64,000 nt of DNA from Flavobacteriales bacterium (GTDB lineage: Bacteria > Bacteroidota > Bacteroidia > Flavobacteriales_F > PHOS-HE28): assembly GCA_024103275.1 (NCBI GenBank), contig JAGFIV010000085.1, positions 1 to 64,000 of the forward strand, in the 5' to 3' direction. The notes under the pieces are model-generated. The model searched no databases. It worked only from the letters and a program-made list of their open reading frames with translations, and was not told the DNA's origin. Every line of letters begins with the position of its first letter. Position 1 is the first letter of the stretch. Shown here piece by piece: positions 44,499-47,169 of this stretch. A program made the translations under genes and the position numbers.

Positions 44499-45968
44499 AT
44501 GATGCAGGATTACAGGTACTTCCCTTGGAGCGCGCTGTTCCTGGGCGCAGCCCTGCCCGTCATGGGCCAAGGCACATGGCAAAGGACCTATGGGGGGTAC
44601 TCACTGGATGAAGGCAAGGCAGTGATCGTCACGTCCGATGGTGATTTCGTCGTGGCGGGAAACACGGGCAGTTTCGGGGCGGGAGGGGCGGACATCTACG
44701 TCCTGAAGCTGGATGGGAACGGGGAGAAGATCTGGTCCCGTACCTATGGGACACCTCAAATGGACCATGGGACGGATGTCATGGAAACGGTTGATGGCGG
44801 GTTGGTCGTGGCAGGCTTCACCAATGGCCTCGGCAATGGGGGGTATGATGGATATCTGTTGAAGCTTGATGGCGACGGGAACCTGCTCTGGGAACGGACC
44901 TATGGTGGCGCTGATTGGGAGTTCCTGCATGCCGTTTGCCCGGCGCAGGGCGGGGGTATGGTGGTGGCGGGGTTGAAATATGGTGATGGGGCTGGCGGGG
45001 GCCGTGCCTGGCTATTGAAGGTGGATGATATGGGCGAGGTGGTTTGGGAGCGTACGTACGGTGATTCCATGGAGACGACGGCGAATGCCGTGGTGGCCAC
45101 TTCGGATGGCGGATACATCATGGCGGGGGCGGCCACCGTGGGAGGGAACCAGGATGCTTGGCTGGTGAAGCTGAATGGGGACGGGGACCTGGGATGGGAT
45201 GAGCGCGTCGGGGGTGATAGCGCGGAGGTTGCGACATCGGTTGTTGAATTGGCCAACGGCGGGTTTGTTGCGGTCGGGACCACCAAAAGCCATGGGCCGC
45301 ACGTTGAAGCCTTGGAGTTCAAGCTGGACGCAGTGGGAGAGCTGCAATGGTTGCAGCATTGGGCGCAGGTTTCCGGGGAAGAGTCCATGGATGTTGTCGA
45401 GCTCGGCGACGGCCGGCTACTGTCCGTGGGCTATGCGGCGGGTATTGGGAGTGGCGGAAAGGACATGTATATCCTGTTCGTGGACCCTTCGGGCAACTTC
45501 TTGTCGGGCATCACCAACGGTGGCGACAACGGGGACAGGGATGAGGTAGGCAACTCGGTCGCGGTGGTCCCTGAAGGGGGGTACATCATTGCAGGGTACA
45601 CGGAAAGCTTTGGGTTTGGTACCCGTGATGTTTATGTCGTTCGCACGGATTCCTTGGGATTGACCAGCAGCACCAGCGTCGAGAGTGTCTTTGATCCCTT
45701 GGCCGTGCCAGAGGTGGATGCCCCGGCCGATCGTCACCTCTTTCCGACGGTCGTCCGGCCGGGCGAGGAAGTGCACGTGGAGTGGTCGCAAGCGCAAATA
45801 AGGACACTTCAGTTGGTGGATGCCCGCGGGATCACATCGTGGAGGCTGACACTTGGGGTGGGAGAAGAAAAGTTTACCCTGCCCGAATTGGCGGCGGGCG
45901 TGTACATTGTCCTATTGGACCTGGAGGATGGAACCCGGCGAACCGGTAAGATCGTCGTCCATGATTGA
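44499..45968 (+). CDS. Secreted T9SS type A sorting domain protein with seven-fold propeller-like repeats
   Basis: 489 residues starting at the double ATG 44499/44502 (MMQDYRYFPWSALFLG). The frame is open far upstream but the extra sequence is antisense to the GT-C gene. Signal peptide to ~residue 25 (ALPVMGQG). About seven repeats of the form 'SDGDFVVAGNTGSFGAGGAD-IYVLKLDGNGEKIWSRTYG' fit a beta-propeller or delta-60-like fold. The last ~90 residues are a Por-type tail (HLFPTVVRPGEEVHVEW ... LAAGVYIVLLD). It resembles the two tandem proteins at 2570-6317 but lacks a PKD domain. Exported by T9SS; the ligand is unknown. Confidence 0.85.
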   Translation: MMQDYRYFPWSALFLGAALPVMGQGTWQRTYGGYSLDEGKAVIVTSDGDFVVAGNTGSFGAGGADIYVLKLDGNGEKIWSRTYGTPQMDHGTDVMETVDGGLVVAGFTNGLGNGGYDGYLLKLDGDGNLLWERTYGGADWEFLHAVCPAQGGGMVVAGLKYGDGAGGGRAWLLKVDDMGEVVWERTYGDSMETTANAVVATSDGGYIMAGAATVGGNQDAWLVKLNGDGDLGWDERVGGDSAEVATSVVELANGGFVAVGTTKSHGPHVEALEFKLDAVGELQWLQHWAQVSGEESMDVVELGDGRLLSVGYAAGIGSGGKDMYILFVDPSGNFLSGITNGGDNGDRDEVGNSVAVVPEGGYIIAGYTESFGFGTRDVYVVRTDSLGLTSSTSVESVFDPLAVPEVDAPADRHLFPTVVRPGEEVHVEWSQAQIRTLQLVDARGITSWRLTLGVGEEKFTLPELAAGVYIVLLDLEDGTRRTGKIVVHD

Positions 45969-45989
45969 TCGCGCCTTCCGGTGGCAATG

Positions 45990-46180
45990 GGGTGCCTCGA
46001 AGAACTTCGAACGGATGGCGCGCGCAGCTATCATTCGTCCAGACGAGGCGCTCCGAAGAGAGGATACTGGATCGAAGTATCCGACTGAGGAGCAACAAAG
46101 TATGGGCGAATGAGAGCAAGCGATGACCGCTGTGCTTCTTTCTCATGAACGCCGCCGGAACGAGGTTCTTCGAGGTACCC
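45990..46180. other. Palindromic structured element: 20-bp inverted terminal arms enclosing two hairpins
   Basis: Arms 45990-46009 and 46161-46180 are complementary at 18 of 20 positions. Inside are two independent hairpins: GCTCC/GGAGC plus GGATAC/GTATCC (46050-46093), and ATGAGA...TCTCAT with an AGCG/CGCT inner stem (46106-46152). The predicted fold is a Y-shape. It lies in a 463-nt gene-free and relatively AT-rich interval (45969-46431) after a T9SS gene; I see no promoter or coding frame in the rest. It could be a non-coding RNA, a MITE-like or REP-like repeat, or both. Only one copy is seen in this window. Confidence 0.55.
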
Positions 46181-46431
46181 AATGGACCATCAGCTGCCGA
46201 AGGCGGCCGACGAGGCCCGCGCGAATTCGGGGGGATGTGACCCGGAAATGGTTTTGAACGGTGTTGAATGGTCATCCACCTTGGCCATATCGGATCCATC
46301 CGATGAACTTGCGTACGGATCCACAACCATTTCTTATCGGAGAGCGCCCGGTAAATTGATAAGAACCCCATTTGATTACATTGTGCTGGCCATGATGGTT
46401 GACGAATTATCATCACTTGATCATCGCTTGG

Positions 46432-47169
46432 ATGCCAATTGATGCTTCCTTGATCCCCCTTGTCCGTGGCATCCACATCGCCGCCGGCAGCATCGCCTTG
46501 ATCATGGCCCCCCTGGCCATGCTGGCCTCCAAGGGCGGTGATTGGCACCGCCGCTGGGGCAAGGCGTTCTTTTACGGCATGGCCGTGGTGTGTGCCACGG
46601 CGCTCATCCTTGGCATCCTGTTCCCTGCGGATTTCTGGCTGGCCATGCTGGCCATCCTCAGTTTCCACATGGTCGGCTCGGGTTACCGTTCCCTCTTCCT
46701 GAAACAGATGCACAAGGGGTTGCGCCCCGCCCGGATCGACCTGGTCCTGCATGGCGTGGCCGCCGTGGTCAACGGAGGATTGCTGATGTGGGGCCTTGCC
46801 CATTTGATATTGAAGGATTTCAACGCACAAGCGCTGCTGCTAACGTCACTGGGCCTCATGGGCACCATCATGGTGTTGAACGGCTTCATGCAGTTCTACC
46901 GCCAGCGGCAGGACAAGCGCGGCTGGCTGTACGGCCACATGATCGGGTTCATGGGCGGCTACACGGCCACGCTCTCGGTCTTCAGCGGGGTGAACCTCGC
47001 CTTCATCGAGCCGGTATGGCTACGGTGGTTGTGGCCCCCCATGGTGGGGATCCCGCTCATCTGGCTTTGGATCCACCGCCTGCGCAGGCGTTTCGCCAAC
47101 GGGGAGCATTTGCGCAGCTTTGCCGATGTCCGCATCAAGGGGCGCATCGGCCGCAACTGGAGGGCCTGA
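46432..47169 (+). CDS. DUF2306-like integral membrane protein
   Basis: 245 residues from ATG 46432 (MPIDASLIPLVRGIHIAAGS). Six or seven membrane helices. The start RGIHIAAGSIALIMAPLAML followed by a W-HRRWGKAFFYGM loop is typical of DUF2306 membrane proteins, which have no known function. The C-terminus is basic (HRLRRRFANGEHLRSFADVR). It sits directly before the glycosyltransferase cassette (97 nt to the next start), which has its own promoter-like box, so cotranscription is possible but not required. Confidence 0.75.
   Translation: MPIDASLIPLVRGIHIAAGSIALIMAPLAMLASKGGDWHRRWGKAFFYGMAVVCATALILGILFPADFWLAMLAILSFHMVGSGYRSLFLKQMHKGLRPARIDLVLHGVAAVVNGGLLMWGLAHLILKDFNAQALLLTSLGLMGTIMVLNGFMQFYRQRQDKRGWLYGHMIGFMGGYTATLSVFSGVNLAFIEPVWLRWLWPPMVGIPLIWLWIHRLRRRFANGEHLRSFADVRIKGRIGRNWRA

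Follow-up and report, generated by a model that had tools for sequence, protein, structure and literature searches.

Introduction

Within the window, which is the whole 64,000-nucleotide stretch of Flavobacteriales DNA analysed here, a gap between genes holds a palindromic element at positions 45990-46180. A preliminary description offered two candidates for it, a structured RNA not yet characterised and a repeat of the MITE/REP-like kind. The question raised by the locus is which of these the element is, and whether the shape of its interior matters. The usual view of MITEs is that they are reduced transposons, the interior of which is immaterial. Here, the interior has a near-invariant loop and a fold kept across classes of the phylum, and it is common to elements with different ends. 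We think it probable that the element is a MITE carrying a selected RNA fold.

Boundaries and dispersal of the element

The element is 191 bp long and is one of many dispersed copies. Its boundaries in the window are as follows.

45986-45989, unstranded: left target-site duplication AATG, from the sequence (4-bp duplications are found family-wide in 27 of 66 copies)
45990-46009, + strand: left terminal inverted repeat GGGTGCCTCGAAGAACTTCG, which is also the 5' side of stem P1 (over 34 copies, 94.3% of the cells of P1 are paired)
46161-46180, - strand: right terminal inverted repeat, reading GGGTACCTCGAAGAACCTCG on the - strand, and 3' side of P1 (from the sequence and the family copies)
46181-46184, unstranded: right target-site duplication AATG (from the sequence and the family-wide duplications)

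The two 20-bp arms noted earlier, 45990-46009 and 46161-46180, match as inverted repeats at 18 of 20 positions. The gap is indeed richer in AT, with 54% GC compared with 63% in the window, and no open reading frame of at least 80 aa lies within the 191 bp. The preceding + strand open frame has its stop codon 21 bases before the start of the element. An intrinsic terminator was considered and rejected, as the preliminary description had already suggested: none is predicted in 45900-46480, and the T tract is missing. No promoter-like site was found inside the element.

A BLAST search of the genome itself placed the region at ten sites, the window copy included. In relatives, 22 of 58 sampled genomes (own genome included) have a match; all of them belong to one genus, and 23 other genera gave none. 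Model R1, which covers 191 positions, has a match in 31 of 45 genomes of the genus. These dispersed copies, together with a fold far beyond that of shuffled sequences (see below), rule out an accidental palindrome. Stretches with the end pattern of the window family, F1, number 55. By title, 47 of them are from Flavobacteriales, Bacteroidetes, Bacteroidota or Chryseobacterium, and the remaining eight comprise one Saprospiraceae and seven from other phyla. The organisms with the element are uncultured Flavobacteriales and related Bacteroidota. BLAST against phages and plasmids gave no match to the window element or to locus L279, and no viral contig has the end pattern. A loose core pattern occurs in 27 viral contigs, which were taken as chance (best model E-value 0.37). 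A MAG titled Chryseobacterium gleum, CAMCAZ01, also has these repeats (L107, L108, L126, L132, L138, L139, L160 and L161). The repeats are common to this MAG and the Flavobacteriales genus; the species label of the MAG looks doubtful.

The 119 raw end pairs on both strands correspond to 66 delimited copies, while 19 of 88 loci are without one. An exact 4-bp direct repeat stands beside the ends GGGT...ACCC in 27 of the 66 copies, a number that overstates the independent events because orthologous insertions, such as L014 and L036, are among the copies. With the right flanks shuffled, the mean over 2000 trials was 2.0, and the highest value was 7. Repeats of three bases were found 7 times, compared with a shuffled mean of 2.05, and repeats of five bases twice, compared with 0.08. 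For 26 copies with duplications, the left and right flanks were joined and compared with the available loci, where an uninterrupted site corresponds to two of them. An F1 copy in L013 (G023:C2) lies inside a MITE of the sister family F2, and its joined flanks resemble the intact F2 element of L195 without gaps, over 158 columns at 79%. The site of L029 is continuous in L046, at 85% over 154 columns, with two single-base gaps beyond the junction. The window element is a MITE-like non-autonomous transposon.

Several copies differ in form. Positions 4001-4028 of L102 are a 28-bp remnant made of the two arms alone with TTAT on both sides, and L099 and L105 have forms of 87 bp and 79 bp. Extra hairpins (CCTGCCT..AGGCAGG; TGTTTCATCCCG..CGGGAG) are found at fixed places in the F1 copies of L055, L060, L066, L033 and L054, as would result from small palindromes inserting into them.

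The neighbouring genes, called as simple ORF picks, were compared for the 96 non-redundant copies with two neighbours. The arrangement is convergent in 32, sense tandem in 28, antisense tandem in 20 and divergent in 16. The difference between sense and antisense in tandem genes is not significant (p 0.31), and a strict 3'-UTR role therefore lacks support. In 60 of the 96 copies, the upstream gene is directed towards the element (p 0.02). Two copies adjoin RNA genes: the neighbour is a gene for Bacteroidales small SRP RNA in L192 (166-272) and a gene for tmRNA in L025 (988-1385).

Predicted fold of the window copy

The + strand of the element folds as RNA with -102.5 kcal/mol (z -9.25), and none of 200 shuffles is as good. 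For the - strand the values are -79 kcal/mol and z -4.72. The parts of the predicted structure, all on the + strand, are the following.

46012-46020, + strand: 5' side of P2, with its partner at 46150-46157 (predicted structure, 34 copies)
46024-46120, + strand: conserved structured core (match to the covariance model R2 with 96.1 bits and E 1.5e-23, the 37 sequences used to build R2 including the window core)
46027-46041, + strand: 5' side of P3 (ungapped pairing test, covariation)
46045-46050, + strand: 5' side of the internal loop, NAGGCG, near-invariant (core alignment)
46051-46058, + strand: 5' side of P4, with tandem G.A mismatch positions (core alignment)
46062-46082, + strand: terminal hairpin P5, GGATAC ... 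GTATCC (core alignment, 34 copies)
46085-46092, + strand: 3' side of P4 (core alignment)
46093-46099, + strand: 3' side of the internal loop (CAACG in most copies, CAACA in this one), followed by two variable bases
46103-46117, + strand: 3' side of P3 (ungapped pairing test, covariation)
46119-46131, + strand: small side hairpin of the window subfamily, with 49.6% of cells paired and no conservation in relatives
46150-46157, + strand: 3' side of P2 (predicted structure, 34 copies)

Two hairpins had been described between the arms. The first, at about 46050-46093, exists and is conserved. The second, at 46106-46152, is not supported, since 46103-46117 pairs with 46027-46041, and this P3 pairing covaries. 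With P3 formed and the side hairpin not kept in relatives, the structure amounts to a single long stem from which a conserved inner branch arises, in place of two hairpins with equal support. The tandem G-A pairs suspected between GAAG and CTGA are present, as 5'-GA-AG-A-GA opposite GA-CU-GA. Among the 37 core sequences, the outer tandem mismatch has G.A in 18 and A.G in 21, and the inner one has G.A in 30 and A.G in 26. A hammerhead-like reading of these bases as CUGAnGA was considered and, on inspection by eye, set aside, as relatives replace them by compensated pairs.

The window structure was placed on 34 of the 66 F1 copies (alignment A1), chosen from 46 copies of 170-216 bp by leaving out L006, L085 and ten others, nearly all with inserted hairpins. 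It pairs 84.8% of the cells, compared with 75.8% after shuffling. The values are 88-94% for P1, P2, P3 and P5, 79% for P4 and 50-61% for the small side helices. Rfam 15 gave no match in the window or in 17 related loci, and at E-values up to 10 nothing over the element came near a gathering threshold.

Pairing and covariation in the conserved core

Weak matches of R1 led to the sister family F2, which has other ends and the same words in the middle. The part held in common is a core of about 95 nt, in which the near-invariant loop AGGCG / CAACG lies between stems with compensatory changes. A relaxed pattern of the core is found in 25 of 45 genomes of the genus, and the reversed control pattern in none of them. 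A stricter pattern picked out the own genome alone among 395 phylum-sampled genomes.

The pairing of P3 was counted without gaps over 9 positions in 41 clusters, which represent 82 of 116 motif rows and still include L154 and L059, both probably there by chance. The 369 pairs comprise 258 Watson-Crick, 36 G-U, 15 A-C and 60 others. With the right arms shuffled 2000 times, the mean number of Watson-Crick pairs is 164 and the maximum 195. The core alignment A2 contains 36 of the 41 clusters and the window (37 cores), with L154, L059, L054, L095 and L230 omitted. In A2, 84.1% of cells are paired, compared with 61.8 ± 1.0% in shuffled alignments, and the pairing falls to 29-37% when the partner is slid. 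Changes on both sides are present in 22 of 27 pairs (shuffled mean 19.2, a value of 22 being reached by 6 of 500), and the doubly changed cells number 219 compared with 78.7 (0 of 500). None of the 500 shuffles attained the observed pairing, doubly changed cells or covariation score.

Covariation was assessed by a home-made, tree-simulated test, which is R-scape-like but is not R-scape, over all column pairs at least 3 apart. In A2, ten pairs have E < 0.5, all of them in register with the structure. Eight are canonical, for example column 23-83 with A-U in 17, G-C in 9 and C-G in 9 sequences. The other two (41-63 and 25-80) are non-canonical and unpaired in the named structure. When applied globally to the 34 full-length F1 copies, the test left every pair above E 0.5 (best 0.58), perhaps due to too little divergence. 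The preliminary description took an absence of homologues with compensatory substitutions as the mark of an accidental palindrome; such homologues are present. It is important to note that the fold is kept by selection, as the compensatory changes indicate.

The internal loop is almost constant while the stems on either side drift. In A2, its columns between C24-G82 and P4 are A.G in 35 of 37 sequences, G-C in 36, G.A in 36, C.A in 36 and G-C in 34. In alignment A3, which has 47 rows (the window and 46 from outside the genus), the corresponding numbers are A.G 45, G-C 45, G.A 45 and C.A 46, and the last pair is G-C in 40 and A-U in 3. From our reading of the register, the loop bases may well pair as written.

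The core extends beyond the genus. R2 has matches in 39 of 45 genomes of the genus (E <= 1e-4), and in 29 of 295 class-sampled genomes from 12 of 155 genera (E <= 1e-3), ten of the 29 being from the genus of the window. In the phylum sample, 7 of 395 genomes from 5 of 171 genera have a match (E <= 1e-4), and three of these genera are outside the class. Inverted ends were recognised by eye in 18 of 20 loci read outside the genus; of the two exceptions, L285 is cut by the contig end and L296 has unclear ends. Copies outside the genus have 88.5% of cells paired compared with 55.2% after shuffling, in an alignment fitted to the model. An ungapped count of P3 in 23 non-redundant outside copies, themselves chosen by a model that rewards pairing, gave 157 Watson-Crick pairs of 207, while the shuffled maximum is 120. 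These 23 copies come from 42 of 53 matches, the window, near-copies and two weak matches having been left out. The middle of the element holds a folded shape, probably of RNA, which is kept in very different elements of related bacteria. In genome G440, which is outside the class, L306, L311, L315, L318, L321, L324 and L327 have two cores side by side in opposite orientation, the whole element measuring about 265 bp as judged by eye.

Use of the fold as RNA or DNA

A fold that is kept by selection could be used as DNA, as an extruded or single-stranded palindrome read by the transposase or by host factors. The compensatory changes would then come from DNA-level selection or from template switching, which is known in palindromes. 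Several observations agree with this. The ends are transposon ends, and with DNA parameters the + strand also folds well (z -6.45). A stem of two-stranded DNA, however, should lose pairing to G-T and to A-C equally, and the two can be compared on the + strand.

Among 37 non-redundant F1 copies, the end repeats have a ratio of G-U to A-C of 63:21 by counts (p 5e-6), and with position 5 left out the excess is present at 14 positions compared with 2 (p 0.004). The excess in these repeats is significant where it derives from G-C sites (43:14), but not where it derives from A-T sites (16:7, p 0.09). The ratio is 36:15 (p 0.005) in P3, and outside the genus it is 27:3 over 9 positions and 38:16 over 14. 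However, G-U also exceeds A-C in shuffled arms (48 to 35 in the P3 set and 35 to 14 outside the genus), so that composition accounts for part of the excess.

Changes to G-U or A-C with the partner unchanged were also counted on trees. The ratios are 58:38 (p 0.05) for the A1 stems P1-P5, 27:11 (p 0.01) for the A1 arms alone, 27:23 (p 0.67) for A2 and 25:12 (p 0.05) for A3. All four have the same direction, with G-U above A-C. With equivalent changes at unpaired columns as the reference, the arms alone differ (Fisher p 0.02; the others p 0.34, 0.23 and 0.13). The arms thus speak against use as DNA, while the A2 count, which has no clear preference for G-U, is in keeping with it.

Other features also weigh against DNA. 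The U.G pair 46016-46154 in P2 is retained in 32 of 34 copies, and the purine mismatches and the internal loop are conserved and not corrected. The better-folding strand is constant, being the + strand in 41 of 46 copies from the genus and 16 of 16 outside. We regard use of the structure as DNA as unlikely. It is likely that the fold is used as RNA from the + strand, a reading that is favoured but not settled. It is favoured by the G-U counts, the conserved U.G pair and the folding energies of the + strand, and only weakly by the tree counts.

Families of ends and an IS5-family partner of F2

Within the genus, the core is found with at least three kinds of ends. Those of F1 are GGGTRCCTCGAAGAACCTCG. 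The ends of F2 are AGAGGGTATCTCAAAAT or AGAAGCCATCTCAAAAT, with the junctions CTAG or TA, and those of F3 are GAGCCTGTTCAGGATC, for which the search gave pairs of MITE size only. Ends of GAGGCTGTCTAAAATT and the like are found outside the genus, and in 8 of 20 loci TTA was seen by eye to flank the element at either end. A comparison by eye of the F1 and F2 ends (GGGTACCTCGAAGAACC and GGGTATCTCAAAATTGC) gives 11 of 17 positions alike.

An insertion sequence of 896 bp has the same 17-22 bp ends and CTAG/TA junction as F2. It is found in L237-L241 and L243-L245, at several places in genome G024 and also in G008, G067 and G002. Its second frame matches NF033580 (IS5-family transposase) with 129.2 bits, above the cut-off of 110, while the first frame is just under it with 105.4 bits. 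The element also matches Pfam DUF4096 and DDE_Tnp_1. R2 has no match in this insertion sequence in seven loci at E-values up to 1. Genome G024 contains ten ends of the 896-bp element and a single core match, which is located elsewhere.

A transposon with F1 ends was sought in the surroundings of 18 places where the ends are isolated or odd, and by end patterns in 22 and then in 45 genomes of the genus, in each case with a negative result. The 1614 bp between F2 ends in L236 (G029:C242) were considered as a possible autonomous form and rejected, this being an F2 element interrupted by another insertion sequence. The latter has a 425-codon open frame and the ends AGTGTCCGGGGAAA. From the similarity of the ends, an IS5-type transposase may move F1.

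Proposed mechanism and alternative explanations

We propose the following course of events. A transposase supplied in trans would act on the inverted ends and insert the element mostly at AT-rich sites, with duplication of about 4 bp. This partner would belong to the IS5 family, as the shared ends point to for F2 and as we infer for F1. The + strand would be transcribed, perhaps by read-through from the neighbours. The transcript would fold into the long stem of P1 and P2, followed by P3, the irregular AGGCG / CAACG loop and the hairpin of P4 and P5, the loop holding A.G, G.A and C.A mismatches. Of the conceivable roles of the RNA we prefer the following: this loop could bind a widely shared RNA-binding factor of the host, and the folded RNA would shield or insulate host transcripts, so that copies persist. 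The role as shield or insulator by means of a loop-bound factor is the weakest step of the proposal, and we hold it to be doubtful.

In a broader reading, the core would define a novel class of structured, mobile RNAs in Bacteroidota. In this case the AGGCG / CAACG core would have been carried for a long time by several sets of ends, and the RNA would be needed for spread or maintenance, either as RNA-assisted DDE transposition or by buying the tolerance of the host. We consider this unlikely at present.

It is also conceivable that the core is a trans-acting RNA needed by the transposition machinery, which for example binds the transposase and licenses movement. The core does lie between inverted ends in most loci read, it is combined with the three or more kinds of ends in the genus, and its loop is kept outside the class too. 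However, the 896-bp IS5-family element is without a core, the single core match of G024 lies elsewhere, and we know of no RNA-dependent transposition in the IS5 family. This explanation appears improbable.

Very improbable, in our view, is an ordinary MITE, the inner structure of which would have no function and result from common descent and palindromy. Long palindromes are frequent among MITEs, and the side hairpins of this element vary freely between subfamilies, as might be expected. However, common descent does not fit with 22 of 27 core pairs being doubly changed, with the 500 shuffles that never equal the core in pairing, changed cells or covariation score, or with a near-invariant loop amid drifting stems. 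An REP/RAYT-type repeat or an intrinsic terminator would also be intergenic, palindromic and multicopy, but the target duplications, the length of about 190 bp and the missing terminator-like site make this extremely improbable.

The choice between a structured RNA and a MITE/REP-like repeat, as it was first posed, is thus answered by both a MITE and a structured core at once. The identity as an REP in the strict sense is unsupported, because REPs are not known to make target duplications.

If the reading of a MITE with a selected RNA fold is true, the element represents a mobile class of non-coding RNA in environmental Bacteroidota. This would pose a testable question: does the RNA help movement, or does it protect the transcripts where the element lands? 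The covariance model is available to annotators for a structure where Rfam has none.

Comparison with known systems

MITEs, IS5 families and small RNAs derived from MITEs are known kinds, the Coxiella QMITEs being one example in the part of the source considered (PMC5896051). A full-text literature search, with most subscription papers and preprints outside its coverage, gave no description of the present element or its core.

Within the IS5 family (NF033580), F2 shares both ends and junction with the 896-bp member, whereas the F1 ends are just similar (the 11 of 17 positions by eye). BrickBuilt of Porphyromonas gingivalis, in the portion of its description at hand (PMC4596501), is alike in its Bacteroidota host, IS5-like ends and predicted stem loops. 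However, its interior is a minisatellite, and its ends are of the GAGACCTTTGCA type, unlike those of the present element. The MITE of Cardinium is also a Bacteroidota MITE, derived from a resident insertion sequence; it differs in its parent, ISCca4 of the IS982 family, and no RNA core is described in the sections of the report covered here (PMC9769881).

The motifs of Weinberg et al. (2010) were likewise found by covariation, and one of them, STAXI, was weighed as RNA against single-stranded DNA in the excerpt concerned (PMC2864571). The core has no match in Rfam 15, a comparison that covers those motifs with an Rfam entry.

There is also a likeness in form to QMITE1 and QMITE2 of Coxiella burnetii, which the relevant passages of PMC5896051 present as short multicopy MITEs with terminal inverted repeats, direct repeats and a long palindromic fold. 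The QMITE1 locus CbsR13 is transcribed, mfold predictions are shown, and in those passages no orthologues of QMITE1 are reported in other genomes. The present element is similar to the QMITEs in size, copies, repeats and fold. It differs in that its core recurs across classes with compensatory changes and a conserved loop.
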